Of a DNA stretch of 64,000 nt, positions 21,943 to 57,937 are shown one piece after another; within the stretch, counting starts at the first letter, position 1; every line of letters begins with the position of its first letter. The notes under the pieces are model-generated. The model saw only the letters and a list, made by a program, of their open reading frames with translations, was not told the origin of the DNA and did not search any database. The stretch is from Polaromonas sp. (GTDB lineage Bacteria; Pseudomonadota; Gammaproteobacteria; Burkholderiales; Burkholderiaceae_C). The stretch spans positions 62,001 to 126,000 of the forward strand of contig NZ_JABBPC010000012.1 of assembly GCF_012927485.1 (NCBI RefSeq), in the 5' to 3' direction. The position numbers and the translations under genes are program-made.

Positions 21943-21984
21943 GGAAGACGGCCCAGCCCGCGCAGGCCAGGCCGCAATGAACTT

Positions 21985-26699: not shown

Positions 26700-26701
26700 G
26701 C

Positions 26702-28219: not shown

Positions 28220-28231
28220 CGCGATCCCACT

Positions 28232-30678: not shown

Positions 30679-30682
30679 AAAA

Positions 30683-32862: not shown

Positions 32863-32864
32863 CC

Positions 32865-37331: not shown

Positions 37332-37383
37332 AATTCAGCGCTGTGATGAACGCAGGCGGTGGGGATCCATTTTCAGGTAGCTG

Positions 37384-39324: not shown

Positions 39325-39332
39325 ATCAGCTT

Positions 39333-40715
39333 TCAGTTGCCAAGCGCCAGTCGGCGCGAACCTGGGAGACTGCCTCGCGGCCCCGAGCTTGAGGCGAGGC
39401 TGGCCAAAACGGGCAGATCAAGCATCTGCACCAAGTCTGCAGCGGACCGTACCCGACGGTTTGCCAGTTCCAGCATCAATGCGCAGGCCACGCCCAGCAA
39501 CGTCCCACCAAAAGCAGCGATCAGCAGGTTGAGCATTATTTTCGGGCTTGACGGATCGAGCGGCGCCGTCGCGGTGTTGAGGCGCACCACATTGGTCTGG
39601 TTGGTCAGGCTCTGGAGACGTGTCTGTGAAGCACTCTGGCTGACCGCTTCGTAAGCACGCTGAGCCGACTCGACATCGCGACGATACACATTGAGTTCGT
39701 CACGCTGCTTGTTGAGCATAAGAAGCCGCGTTTTCTGCGCACCGACTGCCCCCTGCAATTCGCGTTCGCGGTCTTTGCTCACGCGATAGGCCGTATCGAT
39801 CGAGGCGGTGATACGCGCTGTTTCGCTGCCCAGTTGTTTCTTGAGGGATGCCAGTTCCGACTCAGCCCGCTTGCGCAGCGGATGATTCTCACCGAGATTC
39901 ACGCTCGTCTCCTGTACTTTGGCCTCCTGCCGCGCAATATCGGCTTTCAGCCCATTGATCAACGGGCTTTGCATGACTTCAGCAACCGTGTCGCCGCGGC
40001 CATTGCGCTTGCTTTGGCTGTCTGTGCCTTCCCCCTGCACCGTTGTGAGCTGCGACGAGATTTGTCCCAGTTTCGCAGTTTCGTAGTCCAAGCGTTCATC
40101 CGCGGTGACGATGCCGGCTTTTTGCTGGTAGTCTGACAAACGGGACTGCGCCTCTTCAAGTTTGGCGCGTAAACTTTTGGTTTGCCCGTCAAACCATTCT
40201 GCGTAGAGGCGAGCAGGCTCGGTTTTCAATGCCAGATTAATATCCAGATAGGCTTGGGCGAAGGCATTAACTATCGTCGCCGCCGACTCCGGGTCAGTGT
40301 CCTTGTACGCAATGTTAATGACGTTGCTTTCTCGGGCAGGCCGCACATCCAGTTTCTTCTGCAACGATTCCGCCAGCCAGACGTCCATACTGCCCCGGCC
40401 ATTCGTCGCCTCAAGCCATCTCGTTTTAGTAAGCGGGTCCTGGTCCAGTTTCAGCACTTTCACGACGCGCTGTGCAACCCGGTCGCCGCTGATAATGTCC
40501 ACCTGAGTCGCCATGTAGCTTGGCGCAGTCGGACCGGACAGCGCGGCGGCCACCGGATCAGGCGAGTGCATGTCGACCAATACGGCGGTTTGTGCAATGT
40601 ATTTTTTCGGCAACAGCAAGCTGACTGCCAGTGCGGACAAGATCGCGACAACAAAGATTGAAACGGCCACGCGGTAGCGGGCTTTCAGAATTAGCAGGAA
40701 TTGATGGAGTGTCAT
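39333..40715 (-). CDS. epsF: EpsF-type chain-length determinant (Wzz/GumC family)
   Basis: 460 residues. One N-terminal membrane helix (~15-35), a Wzz domain, a long periplasmic coiled coil (~165-350, rich in Lys/Glu/Gln), the tyrosine-kinase-interacting GNVR-like region, and a second membrane helix (~400-420; LLIAAFGGTLLGVACALML). Inner-membrane polysaccharide co-polymerase that pairs with EpsG and the EpsE export pore. Its spacing of 8-9 bases to both neighbours supports one operon. Confidence 0.92.
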   Translation of the reverse strand: MTLHQFLLILKARYRVAVSIFVVAILSALAVSLLLPKKYIAQTAVLVDMHSPDPVAAALSGPTAPSYMATQVDIISGDRVAQRVVKVLKLDQDPLTKTRWLEATNGRGSMDVWLAESLQKKLDVRPARESNVINIAYKDTDPESAATIVNAFAQAYLDINLALKTEPARLYAEWFDGQTKSLRAKLEEAQSRLSDYQQKAGIVTADERLDYETAKLGQISSQLTTVQGEGTDSQSKRNGRGDTVAEVMQSPLINGLKADIARQEAKVQETSVNLGENHPLRKRAESELASLKKQLGSETARITASIDTAYRVSKDRERELQGAVGAQKTRLLMLNKQRDELNVYRRDVESAQRAYEAVSQSASQTRLQSLTNQTNVVRLNTATAPLDPSSPKIMLNLLIAAFGGTLLGVACALMLELANRRVRSAADLVQMLDLPVLASLASSSGPRGSLPGSRRLALGN

Positions 40716-40724
40716 GGCGGCTAC

Positions 40725-41567
40725 TTAAAAGAGGCTTTCACGGACATACAGCACATCTTCGGCTCGCACCGGATCTGTGAGCTTGGGTACTGTTTCAACG
40801 ACATTCCCGGTGGCATCGCGGCGGTTCAGGATAAGGCGGTTCTGGCTTCCGCGCACCGTCGGCCCACCACCCTGCGCCAGCGCCTGCATCACCGTCATAC
40901 CGCGCTCAATGCGGTAGGGACCGGGACGCTGGGCCTCGCCATAGATATAAAACATCGGTGCCTTGTTGACAAAGAGCGTGTCTCCGCCGGCCAGGAGGAT
41001 GTCATCCTCTGATTTCGCGTTCAAGAAAAGCCCTGGAATATCAATCACTTTGCGGAACGGCTTACCTTCACGCTCCCCGGTAACGATGAGCACATCATCC
41101 CCGGTTGCCGTGGCGCCGCCGGCGGCCGCAAGCATATCGCTGACACGGGTGTTGAAGGTTTCAAGCGGGAATCGCCCAGGCCGGCTGACCTGCCCCAATA
41201 CAGCCACCTGGTTGCCGCGTACTTGCCGCAGAACGATGTTGACTTGGGGCATCTTTATAAACCCCCCCGTTCGCAACGCGTCACCAATTTTTTTCTCGGC
41301 CTCGGAGATCGTCAGGCCGCCCACCTGCACGCTGCCCACCAGAGGGTAACTGATCACTCCGCTTTCAGAAACGCGGGCATCGACCGAAAGATCCGGACTC
41401 TGGTAGACCTGCACACCGATGGCGTCTCCTGCGCCGAGTCGGTAGTCCTGGTTGCGTGGCACTGAAGCCGCGGCTGAGGGTTGAGGCGACGAAACCGTCT
41501 GCGCAAATGCAGTCGCGGTGAGAAGGAAAAGAAATGTCGTGGCGAAGCAGCGAGCGAGGAGTTTCAT
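40725..41567 (-). CDS. epsE: EpsE-type polysaccharide export protein (Wza family)
   Basis: 280 residues. The signal peptide ends near AFA-QTV (residue ~23). A poly-export domain (YRLGAGDAIGVQVYQSPDLS, then ISYPLVGSVQVGGLT) is followed by two SLBB domains: VAVLGQVSRPGRFPLE and IYGEAQRPGPYRIERG. No lipobox cysteine is seen, unlike E. coli Wza, so outer-membrane anchoring may differ or depend on EpsL. Forms the periplasmic/outer-membrane export conduit. Confidence 0.92.
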   Translation of the reverse strand: MKLLARCFATTFLFLLTATAFAQTVSSPQPSAAASVPRNQDYRLGAGDAIGVQVYQSPDLSVDARVSESGVISYPLVGSVQVGGLTISEAEKKIGDALRTGGFIKMPQVNIVLRQVRGNQVAVLGQVSRPGRFPLETFNTRVSDMLAAAGGATATGDDVLIVTGEREGKPFRKVIDIPGLFLNAKSEDDILLAGGDTLFVNKAPMFYIYGEAQRPGPYRIERGMTVMQALAQGGGPTVRGSQNRLILNRRDATGNVVETVPKLTDPVRAEDVLYVRESLF

Positions 41568-41648
41568 CTTGGCACCTTTAGAAGGGGTGGATTTTTGAAG
41601 AGTTGGCCGAAAGTAAACCTGGGGAGAAACGGGATGGTCATGGCGGCC

Positions 41649-42953
41649 TCAGAAACTTGCCAAAGCGGTCAGCCCGACCGAGTTGCTCACATAGTCGAAA
41701 CCAGGCAGATTGGACTGGCGCTTGTCGCGCTGAATCGACGCAGTCAACTTCAGTGCGCGGAGCGGTTGCCAGTCGAGCGCCAGGGTGGCCAGATCGGTGG
41801 TGTCTTGGCGGCCACTGCTGGCAAACCCAGCAAGAGGACCTTTGTAATCCCGGACACCGTGGTCATATCGAGCCCGTAGTGCAATTTTTTCCGTGGCTTT
41901 CCAGGTCGGCGCGACAAAGAGTCGATAGCCTTGGTAGTAACTATCCGTCGAGGTCTGATAACTACCCAAATCCCTCGCCAGGCCTCCCGTTATGGAAGTT
42001 TTCCCAGTGACCGCCCAGGAGCCGTTCAGTTCGCCGATGACGCCCGAGAAATTCCGCGCGGAAAATCCGTCGTAGGTCCGGTCAAATTGCGACATCCGGG
42101 CCTGAACCGTGGTCTTTCCGGTGGGTGCCCAGTCGAGCCTGAACTCATGCTCCTTGTCCTTGAAGTTGCCTGCGAACCCCGACGAAGGGGGGAGGCCGGC
42201 GTTCTCACCAGAGCCGTTCCTGAAGCGATAAGCCACTGAGGTGTCCGACGGAAAAACGTAACGCACACCGGCTTCCGCACCGACCACCTTGGAGTCACCT
42301 TCAAAAGTGAACGGTTGACTATTGGTATTGCTGCGCCGGAATACGCCGCCTACCAAGCGCCATGCACCGCCTAGCTCGTACTCTGCATCGAGCACCGTAG
42401 AGCGACTGGTTCGACGATTGAGCGCGCCCGTGTTTTGGACATCCGCGTAGTTATCGACAGTTTCCTGTCGGTCAGTCGTTAGATTACCGTGCAGTGCGGG
42501 CGTAAAGCTCCATCGCCACGCGGCGGCGTAATTAACCGCTGTGAAATTCAAATTGGAAAACCGCCGGTACCGATGGTCCTCGGCGTTGACCGCCAACTCG
42601 AAGCGCTGCAAGCTATAAGGCTTGTTCAACTTCAAGCCCACCGTGGTCACTGCAATGGTGTCGGAGCGGGTCGGCGTGCCAATCAGCGCCTGGGCATCGG
42701 CTGAGTCGGACAATCGATATACGTTGCTGTCATGCTGCACGCTTTCACTCGCTTGAAATTGGAGCGTATCAAGTTCGTCTGCCTGCGCGGCCAGGGCAAG
42801 GAGCCCCAACATGGCAAGCGGAAGTTGAATCAGGGTGCGGGAAGACAACAACGATAAGTTAATTCGCCGACTACGGCATATCGTGGTGTCATCGCACGCC
42901 CCTCCCGGTTGAGCAAGACCAGAGGGAACAAGAGAGTAGGTTTTTAAGTTCAT
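41649..42953 (-). CDS. epsL: EpsL-type outer-membrane beta-barrel protein
   Basis: 434 residues. The ~58 N-terminal residues include a hydrophobic signal (LPLAMLGLLALAAQADE); the mature protein has alternating beta-strand pattern and ends in aromatic Phe (LTALASF), as outer-membrane barrels do. It matches the EpsL proteins associated with XrtB/PEP-CTERM EPS loci. Likely outer-membrane exit channel or accessory. The start is uncertain; an internal ATG at codon 48 would leave a shortened signal. Confidence 0.85.
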   Translation of the reverse strand: MNLKTYSLVPSGLAQPGGACDDTTICRSRRINLSLLSSRTLIQLPLAMLGLLALAAQADELDTLQFQASESVQHDSNVYRLSDSADAQALIGTPTRSDTIAVTTVGLKLNKPYSLQRFELAVNAEDHRYRRFSNLNFTAVNYAAAWRWSFTPALHGNLTTDRQETVDNYADVQNTGALNRRTSRSTVLDAEYELGGAWRLVGGVFRRSNTNSQPFTFEGDSKVVGAEAGVRYVFPSDTSVAYRFRNGSGENAGLPPSSGFAGNFKDKEHEFRLDWAPTGKTTVQARMSQFDRTYDGFSARNFSGVIGELNGSWAVTGKTSITGGLARDLGSYQTSTDSYYQGYRLFVAPTWKATEKIALRARYDHGVRDYKGPLAGFASSGRQDTTDLATLALDWQPLRALKLTASIQRDKRQSNLPGFDYVSNSVGLTALASF

Positions 42954-42993
42954 GAATATAACTATATCAATAGTTCTTATTTGTATTGAACTT

Positions 42994-44421
42994 TTAATAC
43001 GCCGAACTGTCTTTAAATACCAGGCGAACGGTCCTCACGATGATCAAAAGGTCCAGAGCCAACGACCAATTTCGCAGGTAAGCCAGATCGAAATCAATCC
43101 GTGATTGCATCTTGTCCAGCGTATCGGTTTCGCCACGTTGTCCGTTAACCTGAGCCCAACCAGTGATGCCCGGACGGACTTTGTGGCGAACCATGTAGCC
43201 CTTGATGAGTGCGCGATAGGTTTCGTTGTGCGCCACCGCATGCGGACGAGGGCCGACGATGCTCATCCGACCCTGCAATACATTAATAAACTGGGGTAAC
43301 TCATCCAGCGACGTCTTGCGCAGAAAGGCGCCGAGCCGGGTAACCCGCAAGTCATTTTTTCGTGCCTGTTGAATCGTGCCGCCGTCTTCGGTCACGGCCA
43401 TGGAGCGGAATTTATAAACCAGTATCTGCTCGCCATCCAGACCGTAGCGCCGCTGCTTAAAAATAATCGGCCCTGGAGAGTCGAGCTTTACCAATAGCCC
43501 CAACACAAGCAGGATGGGAGAAATCAACACCAGGATGAGCAGGGCCAGCAGCATGTCGCTGACCCACTTTAACGCCCCATTGAAACCCCGAAATGGCGTA
43601 TCGCAAACTGATATCACAGTGACGCCGCAGACCGAATCACTGCGCCCCTGAATCAGATCGGTGACAAACATATCCGGAACAAAATAGATCGAGGCCGTGG
43701 TGTCTTTCAGACCGTCCAGGATCTCCAAAATACGGGGTCGAGAAGCCATGGGTAGGGATAAATAGATGAATTGGACCCGGTTCTTTTTGACGTAATCTGA
43801 CAGCCCTTCTATTTTTCCCACCAGCTTGTACTCATCCTGCCTCACCCTGCGCTCTTCGCTGCGGTCATCAAAAAACCCCAACAGTTCAATACCCGAGTAG
43901 GCCGAGCCCGCGATGTTCCTGGCGAGACAAACCCCCTGGTCGTTCATGCCGACAATGACGCCCCTGCGCAGGGGGCCCTGCAACTTCAACAACTGGGGCG
44001 CTGCGGCTCGAAGCGCCAAATGAGCCCCCACTTGGGCGAGTGGTGCAACCCACAACCAGGTGCCCACTACCGCCATCGGAAATTTGTAGATATATTCCGT
44101 CGCGAAACCCATTAGCAGCAACAGGCCCGCAACCCATAACCATTGAAATGCGATGTTGAGCATCATTTTCCACACCGGAACCAGGAGCTTGGACGTACCT
44201 GGGAAAGTCAGGGAAAACACCATCACGGAGAGAATCAAATAGGCAGGGCGTACCGAACCTTCAAAGCGGAATGCCAGCGCCCAAAGAGAAAGGACAAACA
44301 CCATAGGATCAAGCGCCGATCCCAAAACGCTAAAAAGCTGGCTTCGGCCAAGCTCCACGGAGCCGGAATCAGCGCGGTTGGGCCATGCAGAAGTCGCTTT
44401 GACGTGGTTGGCTTCAGCCAT
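42994..44421 (-). CDS. epsB: undecaprenyl-phosphate hexose-1-phosphate transferase (EpsB/WcaJ type)
   Basis: 475 residues. Polyisoprenyl-phosphate sugar transferase: four or five N-terminal membrane helices, a CoA-binding-like cytosolic domain (~145-260), one further helix (~282-310), and the catalytic domain with [45 protein letters not shown] and [12 protein letters not shown]. Starts each EPS repeat by adding a hexose phosphate to the lipid carrier. Overlaps epsA by 8 bases. Confidence 0.94.
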
Positions 44422-45202
44422 ACGGTGTCACCCGAGTAACTTTAGAAACCGCCTGCGCGCGATTGAACACGTTCAATTTGCGAAAAATGCGCTGCATGTG
44501 ATTTTTCACAGTACACCCGCTGATATTCAAAATATCCCCGATTTCAGAATTCGTTTTTCCCATCGCCACCCAGGCCATGACCTGGACTTCGCGCTCACTC
44601 AGGCCCAAGAGTTCTTCATGCGCAGTTTGTAAGGACAACGAAGTCTGCGTGTGTTGTTGCGGTAGCTGCGTAATGCGCCGTAACGCGGAATCAACGAAGG
44701 GAATCAGCACCTTCATCGCGGTCCCCGCCGGTTCAGCGGGAATCTCAGCGGCGCTCATCACGACGTAGAGGCATTCATGGCCACTTCTCTCGTCTCTGAG
44801 GCCGTGAACCAATACGGTGCGCATATTTTGCAATGCACTGCGAAACGATGCCTCCGGGCGAGAACTGCCGCGCAAATATTCAGACTCTCGAAAGTTGAGT
44901 CGACAAGGTTGCCGCTGCGCGCCTACCCAAAGCGTATGAAATTTTCGCAACAGAAACGCCAGGCTTTCGGTACCTGCAGCGTAAGAGCGCACGCCAGGCA
45001 ATTTGGAGAGGAGGTCGTGCGCGATAGGCCCCTCGCGGAAATCACCCCAACCTGCCAGCAAGATATCGTGGGGCAGATGGTGCTGCACGTCACCCTGCAG
45101 CCAGTGCAGCAGATCGACGTGCCGTTCGAGCGCCAAGCCCTGCTCGATCACCGGCAAGAAACGATTGCGTTCTTCGCCGAGAGATAGCGCGTGAAAGTTC
45201 AT
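44414..45202 (-). CDS. epsA: EpsA-type LuxR-family transcriptional regulator
   Basis: 262 residues from ATG 45202, selected because GGAGGGAAAC lies directly upstream (an ATG four codons earlier lacks such a site). The C-terminal ~65 residues form a LuxR helix-turn-helix: LSEREVQVMAWVAMGKTNSEIG and SGCTVKNHMQRIFRKL. The N-terminal ~180 residues match the EpsA regulator that heads XrtB-type EPS operons; no known ligand. First gene of the minus-strand EPS arm, divergent from the GH5 gene across ~600 bases, so it may control both directions. Confidence 0.9.
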   Translation of the reverse strand: MNFHALSLGEERNRFLPVIEQGLALERHVDLLHWLQGDVQHHLPHDILLAGWGDFREGPIAHDLLSKLPGVRSYAAGTESLAFLLRKFHTLWVGAQRQPCRLNFRESEYLRGSSRPEASFRSALQNMRTVLVHGLRDERSGHECLYVVMSAAEIPAEPAGTAMKVLIPFVDSALRRITQLPQQHTQTSLSLQTAHEELLGLSEREVQVMAWVAMGKTNSEIGDILNISGCTVKNHMQRIFRKLNVFNRAQAVSKVTRVTPYG

Positions 45203-45810
45203 GTTTCCCTCCAATTCCCTGGTTGTTTTTTGTTGGTGGCACTGCGTTGCGTTGTCGCCTCAAGTGCTAACTAAGAATCCAACATACCGCCACGCGCGGC
45301 AATTGGATTGGCCGCACATTTGACGTAGGAAAATAGATCATCCGCACGTAGGCAACCTCCAGTGCGCGCGTCAGATCTCACCTTGCGGTCGAATTTTCAG
45401 CATCAACAACCAGATCTGCAGGGGATGCCGCAGCCGTTGCAAAAGGTTGAACCAACGGCCCGTCGCCGTTTGTTACCATAATTCAAGCGCACCGCCAGGT
45501 TGCTAATGTCGTTTGCGTAAAGTGCATTCTTGGCCATGGAGAACACTGCACTGGCATTGGCCAATACAAGTCGCAACAAGGCGGGCGGGCGATCGATGAG
45601 CGGACGGCGTGCATGAAAGCATGGCCAGAAGGCCGCATGATCCAGGGGCCTTATTGCACTGCACACTCAAAGACCTGTCGGCAGTCAGTTTGTCAACACG
45701 TGCTTCCTGCAATACCCTTGAGGCAAGGCAAGAGCGGGGACACCTTTTCACGTCAACCCACGGTAGATTCAAGATCTGCCTGTCACTCTAAATAATCAGG
45801 AATGCCCTCC
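45203..45810. other. divergent intergenic region between epsA and GH5 gene
   Basis: About 600 bases with no supportable gene; the short frames at 45403-45795 have no ribosome-binding site or family. It should hold divergent promoters for the eps arm and the glycosidase gene. No clear palindrome was found. Confidence 0.45.
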
Positions 45811-48233: not shown

Positions 48234-48245
48234 GAGGTTAACCTC
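48234..48245. other. 12-base palindrome between convergent stop codons
   Basis: GAGGTTAACCTC is a perfect palindrome covering the stop codon of the minus-strand DUF1839 gene, 9 bases after the GH5 stop. It is too short and too AT-centred for an obvious terminator. May be chance. Confidence 0.25.
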
Positions 48246-49230
48246 GCCGGGACAGGCATTCAGACAATAACGCCATGCCGCGGTCCCAAGCCTGTGCCAT
48301 CTCGGAAACTATCAGGGTAGCGTCGAGTGGCCGGCCGGAATTAACCGCTCTGGCGCCTTTGAGAATGAGCGCCTTGTTGCTTTGGGAAATGGCATCGAAG
48401 CAATCGGCAACGGCAACCAGGCCCGGATGGTCAAACCCGGCCTGCCAACGGAGGTTGGCGGCAGCGAGTTCAAAAGCCGCCCCCGCCTGCCGAACCGAGG
48501 CAAAGGCCCAGGCATGGTAGTGCGGCAAGCCCTTTGCCTGCAATTCAAGAATATCCTCTGCAAAACGGCGTCCAAACCGGCGGAAAGGGTTGCTCAGAGG
48601 CCGCCGGTCAAAGTGCCGCCGGAGTAACTCAAAGGAAGAAGCCGCTAATTCGTCCTGTGGCCGCCTGACTACTCGGTCGATGCGAATAATCTCCGCAAAA
48701 AGTGGGAGGAATTCAGGGTCGGCGGGCGCCTCCAGGCGGAACAATTGGGAGAAGTCTTCGCCGCAGAGCTCAAAATAACCTGCGTTGTGAAAATAGCCAA
48801 GCCGTCGTGGTTCCCGATCCAGATTTGCCAACAAAATGGACGTCTTGGAGTGCTTGATGCGATAGTCGGTGCCCGCCGTATCAGGTAGCCAGAATGCATC
48901 AACTTCGGTATTGATAAGTTTACCGGCACTCAAATGCTCGACCGCATGCTCAATCAAGGGGCGCCAGACCGTCAACTCCTGAACATCGATGCCGTACAGG
49001 TCACGCAATTCTTCCAGGGATGGCTTGAAAAAAGTCCACTGATCACCCTCAAAATCCACCGCGAGCGTGAAAGGGAGCAAGGCTAGCGGTTCAAGCCTGA
49101 GCGTGTGCAGCAGCTCTATCCATAGATCGACGTAACAGTTCTTTTCGACCCAAACCATCGCTTCGCCATGCACCAGGTGGCGCCGGTAAGTACCCGGGCT
49201 CAGATCCGGCAACACCTCCATGGAGCTCAT
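48238..49230 (-). CDS. DUF1839 family protein
   Basis: 330 residues, no signal peptide or membrane helix. Recognised as DUF1839 from overall sequence and from its place next to an amino-acid:carrier-protein ligase, the typical setting of this family. Motifs: N-terminal YRRHLVHGEAMVWVEKNCYVD, central KHSKTSILLANLD and GYFHNAGYFELCGEDFSQLF. The function is unknown. It overlaps the ligase gene by 4 bases, so stoichiometric co-expression is likely. Candidate roles are aminoacyl transfer, acceptor recognition or editing (inference). Confidence 0.8.
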   Translation of the reverse strand: MSSMEVLPDLSPGTYRRHLVHGEAMVWVEKNCYVDLWIELLHTLRLEPLALLPFTLAVDFEGDQWTFFKPSLEELRDLYGIDVQELTVWRPLIEHAVEHLSAGKLINTEVDAFWLPDTAGTDYRIKHSKTSILLANLDREPRRLGYFHNAGYFELCGEDFSQLFRLEAPADPEFLPLFAEIIRIDRVVRRPQDELAASSFELLRRHFDRRPLSNPFRRFGRRFAEDILELQAKGLPHYHAWAFASVRQAGAAFELAAANLRWQAGFDHPGLVAVADCFDAISQSNKALILKGARAVNSGRPLDATLIVSEMAQAWDRGMALLSECLSRRG

Positions 49231-50138
49231 GTCCAGAGTTGTGCTCGAACAGCATCGGGCCAGGTTTCAGGGTTAAAGCCATGCGCCTTGATTAACGCCA
49301 ACGTAACGCGTTCAAGGCCAAAGCCCAAACAGGCCGTGTGGGCGACTGATTCGTCCGCGTTGCGAATGCCGAACTTGGCGCTGAAATGGTCCTGGTGCCA
49401 GTTGAATGAACAGATCGCAGTCGGTTTTTCAAGGGAAATCACCGGCACCAGAATTTCAAACTTCAAGCGCTGGTCCATCTGGTTGGCAGCCATCATCTTC
49501 CCGACCCGGCCAAAAAACGGATCGGAGGCCACGTCGCTTTCTGCCGGCAAACCAAGACCGCGCAACAAGTCAAGGCCGCGCTGCAGCCAGGCGTCGCGCC
49601 AAGCCACAACGACGTCCGGCTTGCCCACCCGGATGAACTCGCGCATGCGGAAGGACTGCAGGCGAGTCGGCTCGTCGGATGGCTCGTGGCGATAGACCCA
49701 ACCGAGCACCGTAACGAGTCGTCCGCCGTTGGGCAACAAACCGCTGAAAGTTGGATAGACCGGATAGCAGGCAGCCGGCGTCAACATGACTTCAGTTGGA
49801 TTCAACAGCGCTTCCCAGCGTTCACCCCCGTGAATGCGGGCGGACAATTCCCGCGCCTTGGCGTCGTTACCGGAAAAGCTGTGTACCGAACCCGCCAATT
49901 GCGGGAAGTTGTCCATGTAGCCCACTTTTTCCACCAGCGCGCGCGGCAGGATAGGGGGGAACGTCATTTCTTCGGCATTATCAGGTTCGGCTGTGCGGCT
50001 GACCAGATCATTGAAACGCTGCAAAATATCTTCAAACACGCGGCTTCTTCCGTACGCGCCCTTCACCTCGCCGGGGATGATCAAGCCATGCTCGACCAAG
50101 CCACTATAGAAACTCTCGCTATCGTATGAAACTGTCAA
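49227..50138 (-). CDS. amino acid--[acyl-carrier-protein] ligase (SerRS-like)
   Basis: 303 residues, about the catalytic core of an atypical class II seryl-tRNA synthetase without a tRNA-binding arm. Family members activate an amino acid with ATP and load it on the phosphopantetheine of a carrier protein instead of tRNA. Motif 2 is RHEPSDEPTRLQSFRMREF (150-168) and motif 3 is LGFGLERVTLALI (271-283). C124, E167 and C270 sit where the family's zinc ligands are expected. The matching carrier protein gene lies 1.8 kb away on the other strand. Which amino acid is used is not visible; characterised homologues from Bradyrhizobium and Agrobacterium use small ones such as glycine or alanine. Confidence 0.9.
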   Translation of the reverse strand: MTVSYDSESFYSGLVEHGLIIPGEVKGAYGRSRVFEDILQRFNDLVSRTAEPDNAEEMTFPPILPRALVEKVGYMDNFPQLAGSVHSFSGNDAKARELSARIHGGERWEALLNPTEVMLTPAACYPVYPTFSGLLPNGGRLVTVLGWVYRHEPSDEPTRLQSFRMREFIRVGKPDVVVAWRDAWLQRGLDLLRGLGLPAESDVASDPFFGRVGKMMAANQMDQRLKFEILVPVISLEKPTAICSFNWHQDHFSAKFGIRNADESVAHTACLGFGLERVTLALIKAHGFNPETWPDAVRAQLWT

Positions 50139-51325
50139 GGCGCATCCTTGAAGACGAGCAGCATGGACGCGTTTTTGGCGAAGATTCGATCATTTGAAAT
50201 CATCAGCGATGCCGACAGCGCATCACGGTATTGCCGGCCCAGGCTGAAGGGACTGTCGTTTTTGTAGCCCAGAATGCCCACGATCTGCAAGGCGCGGTGC
50301 ACGATCTGTGGAGCCGCTTCCGAACACGATATTTTTAAATTGTTGAGTCGCAGCGCCCAACCCATACTCGACAACTCTTCCTGAGCTGCGGCGTCCGGGG
50401 CAATGGCATCGAACGCCTGAGCGGCACACTGCCAGTTCTGCTTCATCGTTTGCAGCTGCATGGACACCTCTGCCAAACGGGAGGCCGTGGGAGGCACCGT
50501 GCCGGGTGTCTGTCGGGCCTGACCGCGTACAAAATTGGCCGACTTCCCAACAGCGTCGGCTGCAATTCCCCACCAAAGCGCACCCCACAGGATATGGGAA
50601 TAAGGCACCATGGTTTGGGCAGAACTGTCCGCATACGAACCGGGAACAATCTGATGATCGGAACCCGAAGATTCGAGCCGGAATCCCGGGCTGCAAGTGC
50701 CGCGCAAACCCATCGTGTCCCAGCTGGTCGTCTGAGTGAGCGTGCAGTCTTCACGTCTGACAAGTACCAGCACCTGGTCGCTGGCGGGCGCACTCGCCTC
50801 GCGGCGACAAGTTACCAAAATAGCGTCTGCATAAGCGCAATAGGAACCAGTAGTCGCGTCCTTGTTCAAGACAAACCGCCCACCTTGGCGCTCAACGGCA
50901 CAGATACTTGAGCGGGTATCTCCATAGGTGCCCACCTCGGAAGTCATCGATGCCAATAAATACTGGTGCTTCACAACATCGCGCAAGTAGCCCTGGAAGA
51001 AATCGCTGTTCAACCCGTGGCGAGCAATGCAGCCCAGCTGAATGTAGTGCATGGCAAGCACCATGCCGCTGGAGCCGCAGGATTGAGACAACGTCGAGCA
51101 CAGCTGGGCCAACTCCAACAGCGTGCATCCGGCACCTCCAAAGTCGCGGGGTACGGCGGCAGACAGAACGCCCGCCTCGCGCAGGGCCTCCAGGGTTTCC
51201 GCCGGAAAGCGGCCTTTTTTGTCTACGTCGGCAGCGTGTAGCGCCGCTACGTCTGCGCCGACCCGACGCGTTGCTTCGAGCAAGAACCCAAAACTTTGAT
51301 TAACCTGTGTTGATTGAAGACTCAT
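50135..51325 (-). CDS. acyl-CoA dehydrogenase family flavoprotein (aminoacyl-carrier cluster)
   Basis: 396 residues from ATG 51325; TTG 51346 would add 7 residues. Acyl-CoA dehydrogenase fold: N-terminal helical domain with FPAETLEALREAGVLSAAVP, middle domain with LASMTSEVGTYGDTRSS, and C-terminal helices with SLGRQYRDALSASLMISNDRI. Relatives in secondary metabolism (for example those acting on prolyl-carrier proteins) oxidise aminoacyl groups bound to carriers, so an alpha,beta-oxidation of the aminoacyl-carrier thioester is plausible here. Overlaps the ligase by 4 bases and is the first gene of the leftward operon. Confidence 0.88.
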   Translation of the reverse strand: MSLQSTQVNQSFGFLLEATRRVGADVAALHAADVDKKGRFPAETLEALREAGVLSAAVPRDFGGAGCTLLELAQLCSTLSQSCGSSGMVLAMHYIQLGCIARHGLNSDFFQGYLRDVVKHQYLLASMTSEVGTYGDTRSSICAVERQGGRFVLNKDATTGSYCAYADAILVTCRREASAPASDQVLVLVRREDCTLTQTTSWDTMGLRGTCSPGFRLESSGSDHQIVPGSYADSSAQTMVPYSHILWGALWWGIAADAVGKSANFVRGQARQTPGTVPPTASRLAEVSMQLQTMKQNWQCAAQAFDAIAPDAAAQEELSSMGWALRLNNLKISCSEAAPQIVHRALQIVGILGYKNDSPFSLGRQYRDALSASLMISNDRIFAKNASMLLVFKDAP

Positions 51326-51566
51326 ATTGATAGATGCCAATGTCAAACATTCGATTTCAGATTGGGCTTGAAAGCCCGGCTACTGCCGCTCAAAAAAAAG
51401 GGATCTTGTCTTACATTTCCCGTAACCAGTTACAGCCTATTATCCGTTTGCCAAGCGATAGCGTGTACAGATAAACCCTCAAGGTGCGTAGCATGAAAGC
51501 AAAATCCTGATGTTCAGATTAACACCTAATGAAAATATTTGTGCAAGCCTCTTACCGGGATTTCGC

Positions 51567-51977
51567 ATGGGTTTCGACTTGGTAAAAATTAGCGAGCTAG
51601 CAAACTCGATCCACCATTTCGGCGACGTTTTCAAGCGCAAGTTATTTACCAAGAATGAGCTCAATTACGCGCACAGCGGAAGTGGATTGTGCGAGGAACG
51701 ATTGGCAACTCGATTTGCTGCCAAAGAGGCTGTCATCAAGGCTCTCAAGCTCAGCGAAGCGGGAATCGGCTGGCGTGAAATTGAGGTGCTGAAGTTACCG
51801 GACGGAAACTGCGAAGTTGCCTTGCACGGCCGCGTTGCGGAGTTGGCGAAAAGTATGGGCGTTGCCGACATCTCGTTGAGTTTGAGCCACGACGGTGATT
51901 ACGCAGGCGCCGTGGTGGCACTGCGCTGTTCACAACCTGAAGTTAACAACTCTCTTTATGACCGGCATTCACTATGA
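51567..51977 (+). CDS. 4'-phosphopantetheinyl transferase (AcpS-like)
   Basis: 136 residues from ATG 51567, which puts the family's first motif at the N-terminus (GFDLVKI, with metal ligand D4). The second motif, RLATRFAAKEAVIKAL, carries E54, the other magnesium ligand. It would convert the adjacent apo-carrier protein to holo form by attaching phosphopantetheine from CoA. It overlaps the carrier gene by 4 bases, which makes a dedicated role likely. The housekeeping AcpS is expected elsewhere in the genome. Confidence 0.88.
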   Translation: MGFDLVKISELANSIHHFGDVFKRKLFTKNELNYAHSGSGLCEERLATRFAAKEAVIKALKLSEAGIGWREIEVLKLPDGNCEVALHGRVAELAKSMGVADISLSLSHDGDYAGAVVALRCSQPEVNNSLYDRHSL

Positions 51978-52231
51978 GAAATTTAGAACAGGTTGAAGCC
52001 CAAATCCGCAGCGTGTTACTGGCCCATGGTCGTCTGAATCGGGAAGTGAGTTCGCTGGACGTTTCCACGGACCTTTACCAATCGGGAATGACCTCCCATG
52101 CGAGCGTCAATGTCATGTTGGCACTCGAAGGGGCTTTTGACGTGGAGTTTCCAGACCATCTCCTGAAACGCAGCGTTTTCGGCAGCATTGAATCCATACA
52201 CCATGCCTTGAACCAGCTGGCTACCACCTGA
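51974..52231 (+). CDS. acyl/aminoacyl carrier protein
   Basis: 85 residues, a four-helix carrier protein. The modification site reads SGMTSHASVNVMLALE (37-52), so S41 is the likely phosphopantetheine serine, and the usual DSL is replaced by TSH. This matches the carriers encoded beside amino-acid:carrier ligases rather than fatty-acid ACP. Coupled to the AcpS-like gene by ATGA overlap; followed 8 bases later by the GH2 gene. It is the expected substrate of the ligase at 49227-50138. Confidence 0.9.
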   Translation: MRNLEQVEAQIRSVLLAHGRLNREVSSLDVSTDLYQSGMTSHASVNVMLALEGAFDVEFPDHLLKRSVFGSIESIHHALNQLATT

Positions 52232-52239
52232 GCGTAGAC

Positions 52240-54810
52240 ATGAGTAAGCCAAGGACGCGCCACCACATGCGAGAGCTGCTGCTGGTGAACTGGCTTATCT
52301 GCGCTACGCCTCCAGGAGATGCCGGGCAATGCACTCCGCCTGAGGGATCTTGCTGGACCCGCATACGACAGCTGATGCCGGCCGCAGCCGCCTTGCGTGA
52401 ACTGAAGGAATGGTCGCTCGACGAACCTGCCCGACGCTTTGATGCCCAGGACTGGTGGTACAAATTGACATTTGACGCCTCCCCCAGGAATTTTGCAGAA
52501 CCAGCTGTCCTGGGGTTTGACGGGTTGGCGACGATTGCACAGGTCTGGTTAAACGGAAAGCTGCTGCTGGCCAGTACCAATATGTTCGTGGAGCACGAAT
52601 GCGACGTCAGCAGCGTCCTCAAGGACAACGACAACGAGCTGTTGATTTGCTTTAGAGCGCTCGACGCGAAACTGGCCATGCCGCGCAAAAGACCGCGGTG
52701 GCGCGCTCCGATGGTTGCGCATCAGCAATTGCGCTGGTTTCGCACGACATTGCTGGGGCGCACTCCGGGTTGGTCGCCCCCTGCTGCTGTGGTGGGACCG
52801 TGGAAAGACATCTGGCTGGAGCAGCGCAGACAGTTTCACATCAAGGATCTTTGTGTCGAAGTCAGCGTCGATGACACGACCGGGACGGTCAAGTGCCGTT
52901 TGGCGTGTGAACCTCTAGGTGGCCAGACTATCGACGCCGTTACGCTGCAACTCGAGCGCTGCGGACGTGTCGATGTGCAGCGCCTTTCGGGCAGAGTTGG
53001 TACGATTTTCTTTGCAGGACAACTGCAGCTAGGCAACGTCGACTTGTGGTGGCCCCACACCCACGGGGAACCCTCGCTGTACTCGGCTTCCTTGAGAATC
53101 CGCATTGCGGGTATCCTGGATGAAACTGTCATTGCAATTGGCCGAGTGGGATTTCGCACGATCACGCTGGATACCGCTAACGGAAATTTCTCGTTGAACG
53201 TCAACGGCGTGTCTATTTTTTGCCGCGGCGCCTGCTGGACCCCTCTGGATCCGGTCACTTTGCGCGCTTGTCCCGAAGCGTCCCAAGCGGCTGTCGCACA
53301 GGCGCGATCGGCTGGCATGAACATGCTGCGCGTAGCCGGAACCATGGTCTACGAAGAACACCATTTTTTTGATGCCTGCGACGAACAGGGCATGCTTGTC
53401 TGGCAGGACCTTATGTTTGCCAACATGGATTATCCCGGCGACGACTCGGAATTCATGGCGTCCGTGGTGCTTGAAGTAAGCCAGCAGCTCCGGGGCCTTC
53501 AGGCAACCGCCTGCCTGGCATTGCTTTGCGGTAACAGCGAAGTGGAGCAGCAGGCCGCTATGTGGGGAGCGCCACGCGAGCTCTGGCAACCGGCGCTGTT
53601 TGAAGACACCTTGGCCCAACTCTGTGCGGATCATGCACCGGGCACGCCGTACTGGCCTTCCAGTGCGCACGGCGGATCGTTCCCGCACCAGGCAAGCACC
53701 GGCACAAGCTCCTACTACGGCGTCGGTGCCTACCTTCGTCCGCTGGACGATGCGAGGCGGGCAGACGTGAAGTTCGCAACCGAATGCCTGGCGTTTGCCA
53801 ACATTCCCGCTGCCGCGACCATTGGCCGGATGCCCGGGGGGTTGGCCATCCGGGTGCATCACCCGGAGTGGAAAGCCCGCTCTCCGCGTGACCTTGGCGC
53901 AGGCTGGGACTTTGACGATGTGCGCGACCACTACCTGGGAACGCTGTTCCACACCGATCCGCAAAAACTGCGCTACACGGATCACGACCATTACCTTACA
54001 TTGGGCCGCATGGCGACAGGCGAAGTGATGGCGGCCAGCTTTGCCGAATGGAGGCGCCCGGCTTCACCTTGCGGAGGCGCAATGGTGCTATTTTTACGCG
54101 ATCTGTGGGCCGGGGCCGGCTGGGGATTGATCGATGACTCCGGTGTGCCAAAGGCCTGTTATCACTACCTCAAACGAGCACTACAACCGCTTACGGTGCT
54201 CCTGTCCGACGAAGGCGTTAACGGGTTGTTCGCGCATGTCATCAACGAGCGTAATGAAGACCGACCACTTGAACTTGAACTCACTGCCTGGCGGGAGGGT
54301 GATGTTTTGGTTGCGAGCGGGAGAAAACTCCTGACGCTGCCTGCGCGAAGTGCCCAGAGCTTTGCGGGCGTGGAGTTGCTCGGGCAGTTCATGGATCTGA
54401 CGTATGCGTACAAATTCGGACCCATGACGTGTGACGCCGTCGTGCTGACGCTTCGAGACCAATTGGGAAATCAACTGGCTCAGGCATTTCATTTTCCCGG
54501 GGGTCTCGGCGTTCGATCAGAAATTGATATCGGGTTGACGGCACGGGCCACCATGGTAGACGCTCAAACCGCCGAGCTGACCGTTCATACCAAGCGTTTC
54601 GCGCAGGGCGTTCACTTTGCCGTACCGGGATTTCATGCGGACGATGACTATTTTCATTTGCCACCCAACTCGGAGGCTCGGGTCACACTTCGGGGGGCGG
54701 GGTCTGGTCCGTTGATGGGCTCTGTTCATGCGATCAACTCGATCAAAAGTGCGCGTGTTGACTTCGCAGCATCAGCGATTGGTGATCCGCATCGGGAAAA
54801 GACCAAATGA
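52240..54810 (+). CDS. GH2-like glycoside hydrolase (beta-mannosidase type)
   Basis: 856 residues, no clear signal peptide, so probably cytoplasmic. Domain order is that of family 2: jelly-roll sugar-binding domain (~20-190), Ig-like domain (~200-310), TIM barrel (~320-650), C-terminal beta domains. The acid/base motif is LCGNSEVEQ (E434; usually CGNNE) and the nucleophile is likely E515 in KFATECLAFANIP. The N-terminal domain is beta-mannosidase-like. Its place between the carrier protein and the tandem hydrolase is odd for an ordinary glycosidase and suggests a task in glycan modification, or a repurposed role. Confidence 0.85.
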   Translation: MSKPRTRHHMRELLLVNWLICATPPGDAGQCTPPEGSCWTRIRQLMPAAAALRELKEWSLDEPARRFDAQDWWYKLTFDASPRNFAEPAVLGFDGLATIAQVWLNGKLLLASTNMFVEHECDVSSVLKDNDNELLICFRALDAKLAMPRKRPRWRAPMVAHQQLRWFRTTLLGRTPGWSPPAAVVGPWKDIWLEQRRQFHIKDLCVEVSVDDTTGTVKCRLACEPLGGQTIDAVTLQLERCGRVDVQRLSGRVGTIFFAGQLQLGNVDLWWPHTHGEPSLYSASLRIRIAGILDETVIAIGRVGFRTITLDTANGNFSLNVNGVSIFCRGACWTPLDPVTLRACPEASQAAVAQARSAGMNMLRVAGTMVYEEHHFFDACDEQGMLVWQDLMFANMDYPGDDSEFMASVVLEVSQQLRGLQATACLALLCGNSEVEQQAAMWGAPRELWQPALFEDTLAQLCADHAPGTPYWPSSAHGGSFPHQASTGTSSYYGVGAYLRPLDDARRADVKFATECLAFANIPAAATIGRMPGGLAIRVHHPEWKARSPRDLGAGWDFDDVRDHYLGTLFHTDPQKLRYTDHDHYLTLGRMATGEVMAASFAEWRRPASPCGGAMVLFLRDLWAGAGWGLIDDSGVPKACYHYLKRALQPLTVLLSDEGVNGLFAHVINERNEDRPLELELTAWREGDVLVASGRKLLTLPARSAQSFAGVELLGQFMDLTYAYKFGPMTCDAVVLTLRDQLGNQLAQAFHFPGGLGVRSEIDIGLTARATMVDAQTAELTVHTKRFAQGVHFAVPGFHADDDYFHLPPNSEARVTLRGAGSGPLMGSVHAINSIKSARVDFAASAIGDPHREKTK

Positions 54811-56597
54811 CCGCTTTTTCCGCCCCCGAGGTTGCCACAGGCGCAGTACCGATTGCGTTCATGGCCGCAGGAGCGTGGTGTTTTGGATGGTTTCATCCGG
54901 CACGACTCCCGGCACGAAAAGTTGGCGTCGTCTTGTGTTCTCCGATTGGCTATGAAGCTATTTGCGCGCACCAAACTTATACCCAGCTGGCGGATGCTCT
55001 GGCGGAGGCCGGGTTTGCGGTCGTTCGATTCGACTATCACGGAACCGGTGACTCTTCCGGAGGAGATGCCGATCCTGATCGCGTGCGCGCCTGGATGGAC
55101 AGCATCACGTCAGCCATCAATGAATTGAAGCGGCTAGGCGATGTTTCACACGTCGCCTTGTTCGGTGTACGCCTGGGTGCGACGCTTGCAGCGCACGCCG
55201 CGTCGCAGCTCGGCGGAATCGAAAGCCTGGTGATGTGGGCGCCCTGCATTACGGGCCGTTCTTTTGCGCGGGAATTACGCGCCGCCAGCGGAAATCGCCC
55301 TATGTCGGCTCGGCCTGCGGCGCCAGGCGATATTGAGGCGCTTGGCTATCTTTACACCGCCCAAACGCTTCAAGACCTCCAAGCTCTGGACTGTCAATGT
55401 TTGGATAGGCCGCTAGCGCAACGCGTGTTGATTCTCGGCCGCGACGATATGCCCGGGGAGGGGCCGTTGCCCGCGAAGTACCGCGAGATAGGGATGGACA
55501 CCAGCTACGCTGTGATGCGTGGCTACTCTGGAATGATGACCGAGCCTCATGAGGCGGTACCCGAGCCTGCGACTCTTAATTTGATCACGGACTGGCTGTC
55601 TGCAGTGCACCCGCTGCCGGACACCTTGCAAGAGGCAACCAGCACAGCGGCCCCCGGCCCGATCGACTACCTGGTCGACGGCATCCGCGAGACACCTCAG
55701 CTGTTTGGCCTCGACCGATCACTGTTTGGGATATTGTCCGAGTCGGCCGAACTAAAGTCTTCCGACAGCCGCCTGGAAACGGCCATTTTGATGCTGAACG
55801 TCGGCAGGAATCATCACATCGGACCCAACAGAATGTACGTCAAGACGGCACGCTCATTGGCTGCGTCGGGGTATCGTACGTTTCGCTTCGACCTGGCCGG
55901 TATAGGAGACAGTCGCCCCCGGGCAGGCCTCTCGAGCGGAGGGATCTATTCAAAAGACTCGATTGCAGATGTTCAGGCGGCAATCGACAGCCTGGTGGCC
56001 CAAGGCTGCAAGAAGTTTTACCTCATGGGCATCTGCTCTGGCTCCTATGTTGCGTTCCAGACGGCACTTGTCGACCCACGGGTCACCGGACAAATCCTGA
56101 TGAATTCCCGGCTGCTGGAATGGCATGATGGGAAGGCGGGCGGCACATGGCAAAGTTCCATGCAGATGTATTACAAGTCCTCTGATTTTTACCGACGCGC
56201 ACTGTTGCGTCCGGATCTCTACCGACGAATCCTACGCGGTGAAGTTGATGTGAACGGCATCGCAAGGCGTCTAAGAACGGTTTTCAAGGCCCGGTTGGCA
56301 CGCGCATTCAACCGTTTCCTCCATCGCACTCCGGCTGAAGAAGGCGTGCTGGATAAAGTCAAGAATTTGAGTGCCCGCGGCACGGATACGGTGCTGATCA
56401 TGTCTGCTGACGACGATGGGCGTGACTACGTTGAGTTCCAGTTTGGAAGGTTGGGTAGTCGCATGCAGGGCAATCCCAATTTTCGTATGGTTCTGGTTGA
56501 GGAATCCGACCACACTTTTTCCGACTCGGAGAGTCAACGGTTCGTCATTGACACCGTCCAGGAACACCTGAAAAAAAGAGTCTCGAAGATGGGCTAG
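54807..56597 (+). CDS. tandem alpha/beta-hydrolase protein
   Basis: 596 residues with two alpha/beta-hydrolase domains (~1-265 and ~285-596). In domain 1 the nucleophile elbow reads G120-V-R-L-G124, with Arg replacing Ser. In domain 2 it reads G408-I-C-S-G412, with Cys410 as possible nucleophile, followed by a late EESDHTF (candidate Asp/His). The elbows recall, from memory, the two hydrolases of exosortase-A-type EPS loci, here fused into one chain. Domain 2 may act as a thioesterase or acyltransferase on the aminoacyl-carrier; domain 1 may be structural. 4-base overlap with the GH2 gene; no signal peptide. Confidence 0.82.
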   Translation: MTAFSAPEVATGAVPIAFMAAGAWCFGWFHPARLPARKVGVVLCSPIGYEAICAHQTYTQLADALAEAGFAVVRFDYHGTGDSSGGDADPDRVRAWMDSITSAINELKRLGDVSHVALFGVRLGATLAAHAASQLGGIESLVMWAPCITGRSFARELRAASGNRPMSARPAAPGDIEALGYLYTAQTLQDLQALDCQCLDRPLAQRVLILGRDDMPGEGPLPAKYREIGMDTSYAVMRGYSGMMTEPHEAVPEPATLNLITDWLSAVHPLPDTLQEATSTAAPGPIDYLVDGIRETPQLFGLDRSLFGILSESAELKSSDSRLETAILMLNVGRNHHIGPNRMYVKTARSLAASGYRTFRFDLAGIGDSRPRAGLSSGGIYSKDSIADVQAAIDSLVAQGCKKFYLMGICSGSYVAFQTALVDPRVTGQILMNSRLLEWHDGKAGGTWQSSMQMYYKSSDFYRRALLRPDLYRRILRGEVDVNGIARRLRTVFKARLARAFNRFLHRTPAEEGVLDKVKNLSARGTDTVLIMSADDDGRDYVEFQFGRLGSRMQGNPNFRMVLVEESDHTFSDSESQRFVIDTVQEHLKKRVSKMG

Positions 56598-57127: not shown

Positions 57128-57937
57128 ATGGCGCCTAACGTGACAGCCAACCGTCGACCGATTCCCATTCTGATGTATCACCAGATTGCCGTAGCGCCCC
57201 CCGAAGCGGGTCTCTACCGCAGCTTGTATGTGCCTCCAACTGAGTTTTCGCGACAGATGACTTTTTTGCGCTACATGGGCTACCGGGGTTTGTCGATGAC
57301 GGCGTTGCAGCCGTATCTTCGGGGAGAAAAACAAGGGCGCGTGGTCGGCATCACGCTGGACGATGGCTATCTCAACAACCTCACTCATGCGCTGCCGGTT
57401 TTAGAACGCAATGGATTTTCGTCCACTTGTTATGTCGTCAGCCAACTGATCGGCAAGACCAACGCGTGGGACCGCGAGGCCGGCATACCGCAAACTCTTT
57501 TGATGGATGCCCCGCAACTGCGTCAATGGGTGGCAGCAGGCCAGGACGTGGGCGCACACACTCGGCATCATGTGCGACTTAAGAATATTGATGTTGACCG
57601 CAGCCTTGAAGAGATTGCACTGTGCAAATCTGACCTGGAGGAGGCAACCGACGCGCCCGTCCATCATTTCTGCTATCCCTACGGCGGATACGAGTCGCAG
57701 CATAGGGACATCGCGCAAGAGGCAGGTTATCAAACTGCGACCAACTCACGGCGTTCCCGCTGTCATTTAAACGAAGACATGATGCAACTGCCCCGCTTAC
57801 CGGTCGTGCATTCAACCAACCTGCCGTCCTTTTTGCTCAAGGTGGCGACTCCCCACGAGGATCCTCGCAGGACTCTGTCCTTGTGGCTCAAGGCGACAAA
57901 CGCCATCAAGGGATTGCGCCAAACCGAAGAGGTCTAG
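57128..57937 (+). CDS. polysaccharide deacetylase (NodB/CE4 family)
   Basis: 269 residues. ILMYHQI near the N-terminus, GITLDDGY (TFDDG-type motif with the catalytic Asp pair), GAHTRHH (metal-binding His pair), and HFCYPYGGY. No obvious signal peptide, so cytoplasmic or non-classically located. Removes N- or O-acetyl groups from a glycan; related proteins occur in XrtA/XrtB EPS loci. The ribosome-binding site before ATG 57128 is weak. Ends the island of carbohydrate genes. Confidence 0.88.
   Translation: MAPNVTANRRPIPILMYHQIAVAPPEAGLYRSLYVPPTEFSRQMTFLRYMGYRGLSMTALQPYLRGEKQGRVVGITLDDGYLNNLTHALPVLERNGFSSTCYVVSQLIGKTNAWDREAGIPQTLLMDAPQLRQWVAAGQDVGAHTRHHVRLKNIDVDRSLEEIALCKSDLEEATDAPVHHFCYPYGGYESQHRDIAQEAGYQTATNSRRSRCHLNEDMMQLPRLPVVHSTNLPSFLLKVATPHEDPRRTLSLWLKATNAIKGLRQTEEV

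Follow-up and report, generated by a model that had tools for sequence, protein, structure and literature searches.

Which molecule receives the amino acid that a SerRS-like ligase is predicted to load on a carrier protein? Amino acid:[carrier protein] ligases, the subject of work in 2010 and 2013, are reviewed in PMC9437257 (accessible text), and one of them is encoded in a 64,000-nucleotide stretch of Polaromonas sp. DNA, hereafter the window. The overall idea, an aminoacyl group joined to an amino sugar as an amide, dates back in print to 2010: a note appended at the proof stage, in the accessible part of PMC2922099, describes a neighbourhood of a SerRS paralogue, an ACP, a redox enzyme, the conserved ORF Atu2574, a glycosidase and liposaccharide genes, and predicts amide formation with an amino sugar. 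Assuming that Atu2574 is a DUF1839 protein, the present analysis adds to the available portion of that note a fold for the conserved ORF, counts, split systems and loader replacement. The main new result is the fold match of DUF1839 to carrier-dependent transferases. The reading preferred here, with a probability of about 0.55, is that the cassette encodes an aminoacyl-transfer pathway in which DUF1839 forms an amide with an amine.

Organization of the cassette

Seven cassette ORFs occupy positions 48238–56597, and both their coordinates and their family matches agree with the original prediction. Leftward and rightward arms diverge from a gap of 163 bases. The 4-base overlaps reported for nearly all junctions are found at four of the five same-strand junctions, the exception being carrier/GH2, where 8 bases intervene.

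48238..49230, minus strand: DUF1839 protein (PF08893, 333.8 bits, cut-off 22.5; AlphaFold model, pLDDT 96.5; Foldseek)
49227..50138, minus strand: SerRS-like amino acid:[carrier protein] ligase, TTG start (NF005479, 405.7 bits, cut-off 357; PDB 4h2w, E 8.6e-75, and 3mey, E 4e-73)
50135..51346, minus strand: acyl-CoA-dehydrogenase-fold flavoprotein (Pfam Acyl-CoA_dh_N 50.6, cut-off 22.9; Acyl-CoA_dh_1 38, cut-off 22.4; Acyl-CoA_dh_M 20, under its cut-off of 33.3; AlphaFold model, pLDDT 94.5; column counts)
51347..51509, no strand: divergent intergenic region between the two arms (sequence itself)
51510..51977, plus strand: AcpS-type phosphopantetheinyl transferase, PPTase (TIGR00556, 87.2 bits, cut-off 45.35; TIGR00516 acpS 58.3, just under 59.8)
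51974..52231, plus strand: carrier protein, attachment serine at residue 41 (NF005480, 91.6 bits, cut-off 72; column counts)
52240..54810, plus strand: GH2 protein, beta-mannosidase-like (PF22666, 80.7 bits, cut-off 27; PDB 5n6u and 2je8; column counts)
54807..56597, plus strand: tandem alpha/beta hydrolase (Hydrolase_4, 76, cut-off 27, in two stretches; TIGR03100 and TIGR03101 under cut-off; column counts)
57128..57937, plus strand: polysaccharide-deacetylase-family protein, loosely linked (PF01522; homologues in 6 of 58 cassette loci)
25119..45214, no strand: neighbouring eps locus, context outside the cassette (family matches)

The polysaccharide island claimed around the cassette is real and comprises EpsE, EpsF, EpsG, WcaJ, Wzx-like and Wzy-like proteins and glycosyltransferases. 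A free amino group might possibly arise through the polysaccharide deacetylase. For the flavoprotein, an ATG lying seven codons downstream of the given TTG may be the true start.

Conservation of the gene set

Partners were counted at the 59 of 97 DUF1839 loci whose flanks reach 7 kb or more in each direction (the other 38 have shorter flanks); the 80 named loci are those, out of 562, whose protein is most similar to the window DUF1839 protein. The ligase is present at 56 of the 59, the flavoprotein at 56, the carrier at 58, GH2 at 58 and the tandem hydrolase at 45, in sets of 59 and 58 loci that are phylogenetically non-independent (several Undibacterium, several of one family) and with gene calling that is approximate in GC-rich flanks. 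With its partners recurring in these numbers, the DUF1839 gene set is a real unit, and it is spread over nine named phyla. The association of DUF1839 with the ligase is beyond chance: within the phylum, 16 of 398 genomes encode DUF1839, and each of these 16 carries a ligase above the family cut-off, compared with 28 of the 398 overall (ligases under the cut-off, in 16 of the 44 genomes with a match, are excluded from these counts). Six loci with under-cut-off ligases (L141–L146) were inspected, and neither the flavoprotein nor DUF1839 was found at any of them. The order carrier–flavoprotein–ligase–DUF1839–GH2–tandem hydrolase is displayed by 24 of the 97 loci, with the PPTase placed first in 11 more, and the divergent arrangement by 10, the window included. 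Antisense artefacts aside, every other cluster of called neighbouring genes is confined to 10 loci or fewer.

Ligase and carrier

The ligase, of 303 residues, is devoid of the tRNA-binding N-terminal domain and aligns only to residues 296–506 of a 527-residue type-2 SerRS. The attachment serine of the carrier is conserved in 86 of 86 rows. Membership of the ligase family supports the prediction that the neighbouring carrier is charged with an amino acid. The cassette ligase resembles Bll0957-type ligases (NF005479; 3mey, 4h2w) in its over-cut-off score, length, core and adjacent carrier gene. In contrast, in a tree of 86 rows, built without the ligases of split loci L216, L218 and L219, a single branch parts the ligases beside DUF1839 from 12 ligases that have no DUF1839; this branch has a support of 93/95, under the star threshold, and is recovered in 95% of 200 bootstrap trees.

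At four loci the SerRS-like ligase is missing, and it is absent genome-wide as well (0/4). One of these, L108, has an amino-acid adenylation enzyme nearby (TIGR01733, 350 bits, cut-off 317.4), consistent with loading of an amino acid being the step that stays constant. In the stretches seen, no replacement loader was noticed at L084 or L118, and L120 displays an AMP-forming ligase under its cut-offs and no clear replacement loader. An AMP-ligase-type loader as the rule was rejected on the presence of the SerRS-like ligase at 56 of 59 loci. NRPS-like peptide assembly was also rejected: a scan of 40 of the 59 genes called in the window finds no multidomain synthetase, and the carrier is single.

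DUF1839 displays the fold of carrier-dependent transferases

DUF1839 had been given no role in the original prediction. In the Foldseek search with its model, ranks 1–18 are all occupied by AziU3/U2, CtaG and CcbD, matched over nearly the full length (E 1.1e-7 to 4.3e-3, TM 0.51–0.62, 5.7–7.9 Å rmsd), and phytochelatin synthase and peptidases are only partial matches. Against PDB sequences the DUF1839 profile gives nothing significant (best E 0.56). In an alignment of 99 rows, Cys32 is nearly invariant (0.98 of rows with a residue) and His148 invariant (1.0); L075, which contains a stop codon, was left out of the alignment, L099 also from one later alignment, and L083, L075, L074 and L099 from the further reference set. 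The cysteine is absent from two in-cassette copies, L017 and L018. The window DUF1839 was also run once against viral contigs, a search sensitive to close relatives only, and no match was obtained. DUF1839 is predicted to be a papain-like, carrier-protein-dependent acyl (amide) transferase in which Cys32 and His148 would have putative catalytic roles. In CcbD, a catalytic cysteine mediates the transfer of a carrier-bound amino acid to an amino sugar (accessible text of PMC12945683); since DUF1839 resembles CcbD over nearly its full length, it is probably an amide-forming transferase, a modelled likeness that lends support to the transfer step of the original prediction.

DUF1839 shares with CcbD/LmbD, CtaG and AziU3/U2, the BtrH-like papain-fold transferases, a near-full-length fold, a conserved Cys and His and a carrier partner, but has no detectable sequence similarity to the solved members. 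As its loader the cassette has a homologue of class II aaRSs, in contrast to the NRPS A domain of CcbD-type systems, and the GH2 and tandem hydrolase partners further set DUF1839 apart from them. Mycothiol, butirosin and DltA-C/AlmEFG likewise pass an activated aminoacyl group to a sugar or envelope component, as described in part in the accessible portions of PMC10318531, PMC12930378 and PMC4351081, but their loaders and transferases differ from those of the cassette, butirosin BtrH being related in fold class. Among the accessible papers, DUF1839 is named in one, PMC10318531, where acyl-CoA-dependent processing of glycans is suggested. Experiments on the cassette were not found in the accessible text of PMC2922099, PMC4351081, PMC12945683, PMC10318531 or PMC12930378, within a search that lay mostly in the open literature.

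Glycan context

A core glycan homologue lies near the cassette at 22 of 58 loci, compared with 0 of 13 regions chosen at random (from the 165 control genes, 15 had been removed by random choice), as counted with single window proteins as queries, which will miss distant families. The proposed glycan link therefore holds as an enrichment but not as a general rule, since 36 of the 58 loci have no core glycan match within about 10 kb. The original prediction named homologous clusters consistently without glycan genes as evidence against itself, and the neighbourhood survey found this in part, at those 36 loci. Ligase loci without DUF1839 have glycan matches in 3 of 18 cases, no significant difference (p 0.15). 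A second flank scan covered 13 of 15 prepared loci, all 13 from the 36, with L056, L069 and four long ORFs left out; among its 133 flank genes, Pfam detected no glycosyltransferase in the 25 commonest families.

The cassette could alternatively be a self-contained small-molecule pathway whose product is a soluble sugar carrying an aminoacyl group, similar to lincosamides, butirosin or mycothiol, with GH2 as a processing glycosidase and the eps location incidental or historical. This less probable reading would accommodate the many loci without glycan genes and the fold relatives CcbD, CtaG and AziU3, all natural-product enzymes. It is reinforced by L127, whose set lies among mostly housekeeping genes (DsbA, Dus, aminotransferase V, an FAD protein, RecO and one undecaprenyl diphosphate synthase, with no glycosyltransferase among 10 neighbours scanned). 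By eye, the N-termini look cytoplasmic and GH2 displays no signal peptide, though the hydrophobic stretch of the tandem hydrolase (1.69) resembles that of an exported-looking GH5 (1.63). The glycan enrichment at the cassette argues against such a pathway, as does the lack of any widely recurring extra gene family where tailoring or export genes might be expected.

GH2, the tandem hydrolase and split systems

GH2 retains its catalytic glutamate pair, 434 and 515: the acid/base column holds Glu in 80 of 86 rows (5 Asp, 1 Gln) and the nucleophile column in 86 of 86. In the tandem hydrolase the N-half elbow carries Arg122 in place of serine (Arg in 59 of 66 rows with a residue), the C-half elbow Cys410 (64 of 64), and His569 is conserved (62 of 62). 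The elbows of exosortase-A-associated hydrolases 1 and 2 follow this pattern too: in all 7 sampled pairs hydrolase 1 has Cys and hydrolase 2 has Arg, and 4 of the pairs exceed the TIGR03100 cut-off. Unlike these, the cassette hydrolase is fused and scores under both cut-offs (TIGR03100, 133.1 against 168.45; TIGR03101, 96.7 against 202.75). Membership of an exosortase-A system was rejected on these scores and on the lack of an exosortase (PF09721) in the window genome (0/1).

In three genomes the flavoprotein and tandem hydrolase lie apart from the DUF1839–GH2 part (L219 and L218 against L049 and L050 in G449 and G450; L216 against L127 in G455). Two separable transfers from one aminoacyl-carrier, one by flavoprotein and tandem hydrolase to a glycan-linked acceptor and another by DUF1839 and GH2, would explain this separation, the WcaJ homologues near L216 and L219, and the ligase and carrier that each set has of its own in G455. 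This reading is unlikely, as the parts stand together in the three orders of 24, 11 and 10 among the 97 loci and L051 keeps the tandem hydrolase without the flavoprotein.

Flavoprotein

Two cassettes, those at L051 and L127, lack the flavoprotein. Its sequence and fold searches rank both dehydrogenases and monooxygenases. The sites matching MCAD Glu376 and IVD Glu254 were placed by hand from the sequences of these enzymes and from PDB and profile alignments. Neither displays glutamate: the first is Val/Ile in 88 of 88 rows and the second Ser in 75, Ala in 14, Cys in 1 and Pro in 1 of 91. Flavin-dependent alpha,beta-desaturation, as originally predicted, is therefore not favoured. That the protein is a true dehydrogenase giving dehydro-aminoacyl or heteroaromatic acyl groups is accordingly doubtful, with the ACAD fold, SCAD as best fold match, the acyl-ACP dehydrogenase TcsD within the first 50 and a weak profile match to the prolyl-ACP dehydrogenase 4irn (44.8 bits) on one side, and the two base positions (Ser/Ala in 89 of 91 at the second) and the monooxygenases TdsC, DszC and KijD3, likewise within the first 50, on the other.

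Proposed pathway

The preferred aminoacyl-transfer reading builds on the observed gene set, its order and conservation, the DUF1839 fold class and the catalytic-residue patterns. We infer as follows which amino acid is used and how it is oxidised, what acceptor and product are involved, where in the cell this takes place, and what GH2 and the tandem hydrolase do. In the cytoplasm, the PPTase would arm the carrier, and the SerRS-like ligase would adenylate a small amino acid and load it on the adjacent phosphopantetheinylated carrier. Where present, the flavoprotein may oxidise or oxygenate the carrier-bound aminoacyl group. DUF1839 would then accept this group at its cysteine and, by analogy with CcbD, build an amide whose amine most likely belongs to an amino sugar; an alcohol, or a lipid or protein amine, could serve instead. 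GH2 may make, trim or release the glycoside. A second acyl transfer, or a release, could be catalysed by the Cys-type half of the tandem hydrolase. In the Polaromonas genome the acceptor would probably be an eps-related sugar.

A broader proposal is tentative: DUF1839 proteins might be widespread carrier-dependent amide synthases which, together with the SerRS-like loader, an unusual ACAD-fold oxygenase and the beta-mannosidase-like enzyme, produce one common class of oxidised aminoacyl-amino-sugars in at least nine phyla. The Cys/Arg tandem hydrolase, a type also present in exosortase-A loci, would then be a second acyltransferase. For the fate of aminoacyl groups on such carriers, a named transferase and a proposed mechanism are now available. 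If the transferase reading is right, a function is assigned to DUF1839, which these data place in nine named phyla, and a common aminoacyl-sugar chemistry would come to light.

Organization of the cassette and its surroundings

The seven ORFs of the cassette (48238–56597) were confirmed at their predicted coordinates, with family matches in agreement: DUF1839, a SerRS-like amino-acid:carrier-protein ligase (LIG) and an acyl-CoA-dehydrogenase (ACAD)-fold flavoprotein leftward, and PPTase, carrier (CP), GH2 and tandem alpha/beta hydrolase (HYD12) rightward. The near-universal 4-base overlaps of the original prediction are present at four of the five same-strand junctions and absent from one. The polysaccharide setting was also borne out on the left side, which encodes EpsE, EpsF, EpsG, WcaJ, Wzx-like and Wzy-like proteins and glycosyltransferases (the eps locus), while a deacetylase-family gene, an IS240-type transposase fragment and rpoA lie to the right. 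Two features adjoin the cassette:

45802–48225, GH5 protein separating the eps locus from the cassette, its N-terminus Tat- or lipoprotein-like as judged by eye
58942–59454, IS240-type transposase fragment, just past the cassette

With N-termini judged by eye, no clear signal peptide was seen in any cassette protein; the tandem hydrolase displays a hydrophobic stretch close to its N-terminus. The genome comprises 37 contigs (3.5 Mb), and the closest DUF1839 relatives among those found belong to Ramlibacter and other Burkholderiales bins. The nearly all leftward genes at 13544–23190 encode a MlrC-like protein, two amidases and a branched-chain amino-acid/urea-type ABC transporter.

Conservation of the gene set

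The cassette is a real, conserved and mechanistically interpretable unit. DUF1839 occurs in 16 of 398 genomes of the phylum, all 16 with a ligase above its cut-off. Neighbourhoods were compared for the 80 best named DUF1839 relatives, out of 562, and for further genomes. Fifty-nine DUF1839 loci, the window among them, had flanks of 7 kb or more to left and right; carrier and GH2 are present at 58 each of these, ligase and flavoprotein at 56 each, tandem hydrolase at 45 and PPTase at 28. Antisense artefacts aside, no other cluster of called neighbour genes occurred in more than 10 loci. Of 97 loci, 24 share the most frequent order, CP-ACAD-LIG-DUF1839-GH2-HYD12, and 11 more show it with the PPTase placed first; the divergent arrangement seen here occurs at 10, including the window itself.

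In the ligase tree DUF1839-adjacent ligases fall on one side of a single branch (support 93/95), and 12 ligases without DUF1839 form a separate group, adjoined by the flavoprotein in 12/12 loci and the carrier in 10/12. The DUF1839 tree spans nine named phyla, only some forming single clades, a split that may reflect transfer between lineages but does not prove it.

Several genomes with split or missing parts are bins, possibly incomplete. Two Ramlibacter loci (L049, L050) keep DUF1839-GH2 together, with ligase, flavoprotein, carrier, PPTase and tandem hydrolase on a different contig of the same genome. A Salinibacterium bin carries CP-LIG-DUF1839-GH2 at one site (L127), where 10 scanned neighbours included no glycosyltransferase and one undecaprenyl diphosphate synthase, and PPTase-CP-ACAD-LIG-HYD12 at a second, amid glycosyltransferase and WcaJ homologues. 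The L051 cassette lacks the flavoprotein, the nearest homologue elsewhere in its genome having 47% identity. The SerRS-like ligase had no match in the genomes of four loci (L084, L108, L118, L120); near the L108 cassette an amino-acid adenylation enzyme scores above cut-off (L108:10216–11745), and L120 has a nearby AMP-forming ligase of less clear type.

Association with glycan genes

When 14 proteins of the window were each used as a single-sequence query, 22 of 58 cassette loci gave a core glycan homologue, and 13 random regions drawn from 13 of these genomes gave none (p 0.0066); ligase loci without DUF1839 gave 3/18 (p 0.15 versus cassette loci). When 132 flank genes from 13 loci were scanned with Pfam, 10 genes had group-1 glycosyltransferase domains; in 150 control genes no such domain appeared in the list of the 25 most frequent families. 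However, 36 of the 58 loci had no match, and for 13 of these a scan of 133 flank genes showed no glycosyltransferase in the 25 most frequent families. Thus the glycan link holds for a share of the loci and not as a general rule. A polysaccharide product is only one of two live options. In the flanks of 13 loci (L148–L155, L157–L159, L161, L162) EF-P (3), class II tRNA-synthetase (4) and radical SAM (4) genes recur, which may be lineage synteny.

Predicted catalytic features

The DUF1839 model, built from 69 sequences, has a mean pLDDT of 96.5. In a Foldseek search of the PDB, AziU2-U3, CtaG and CcbD fill the first 18 ranks, with alignments that span almost the whole protein (E 1.1e-7 to 4.3e-3, TM 0.51–0.62, rmsd 5.7–7.9 Å), while phytochelatin synthase and other papain-like proteins matched in part only. 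A 2023 paper already assigns DUF1839 a papain-like fold and a C(T/S)H triad (PMC10318531), and CcbD, according to a review, takes carrier-bound proline on a cysteine and gives it to a thiooctose amino group (PMC12945683). Of the predicted catalytic pair, His148 is invariant and Cys32 nearly so. Two in-cassette copies lack the Cys (L017 and L018, in genomes G255 and G328); L003 is listed beside them under copies without it. A Cys-bearing paralogue lies ~4 kb from the Cys-less copy in G328, and the two might form a heteromeric pair.

The flavoprotein model adopts the ACAD fold (pLDDT 94.5), with dehydrogenases and monooxygenases intermixed in the fold-search ranking. In columns matched by hand, with the help of alignments, to the reference base positions, Val or Ile occupies the MCAD position in 88/88 rows and Ser or Ala the IVD position in 89/91. 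Conserved residues are His100, His251, Trp254, Trp258, Met382, Asn385 and Arg387, and the 12 loci that lack DUF1839 keep them too. A monooxygenase is weakly favoured.

The GH2 protein, whose nearest relatives are beta-mannosidases, retains both catalytic Glu. In the tandem hydrolase Arg occupies the first elbow in 59/66 rows, with Gly in 6 and Asp in 1, while the second displays Cys in 64/64 and His is kept in 62/62; such a Cys nucleophile would fit acyl transfer. Similarly, exosortase-A-type pairs (L171–L175, L177, L178) place Arg at the elbow of hydrolase 2 and Cys at that of hydrolase 1 in 7/7 sampled, 4/7 being above the TIGR03100 cut-off. Because of this pattern, such pairs may comprise one Cys-acyltransferase and a non-catalytic partner.

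Relation to earlier work

A literature search that covered few subscription papers found no experimental test of the cassette. Atu2574, the conserved ORF of a 2010 note added in proof, is presumably DUF1839. That note (PMC2922099) reports a neighbourhood of this kind and predicts that an amino acid is joined by an amide to a cell-surface sugar through the sugar's amino group; the conserved ORF would be the ligase, and the redox enzyme would carry out a monooxygenation. To this the present analysis adds counts, patterns of conserved residues, split systems, loader replacement and, if Atu2574 is DUF1839, a fold-based mechanism. The cassette likely performs amide transfer, for which an amino sugar is a plausible acceptor.
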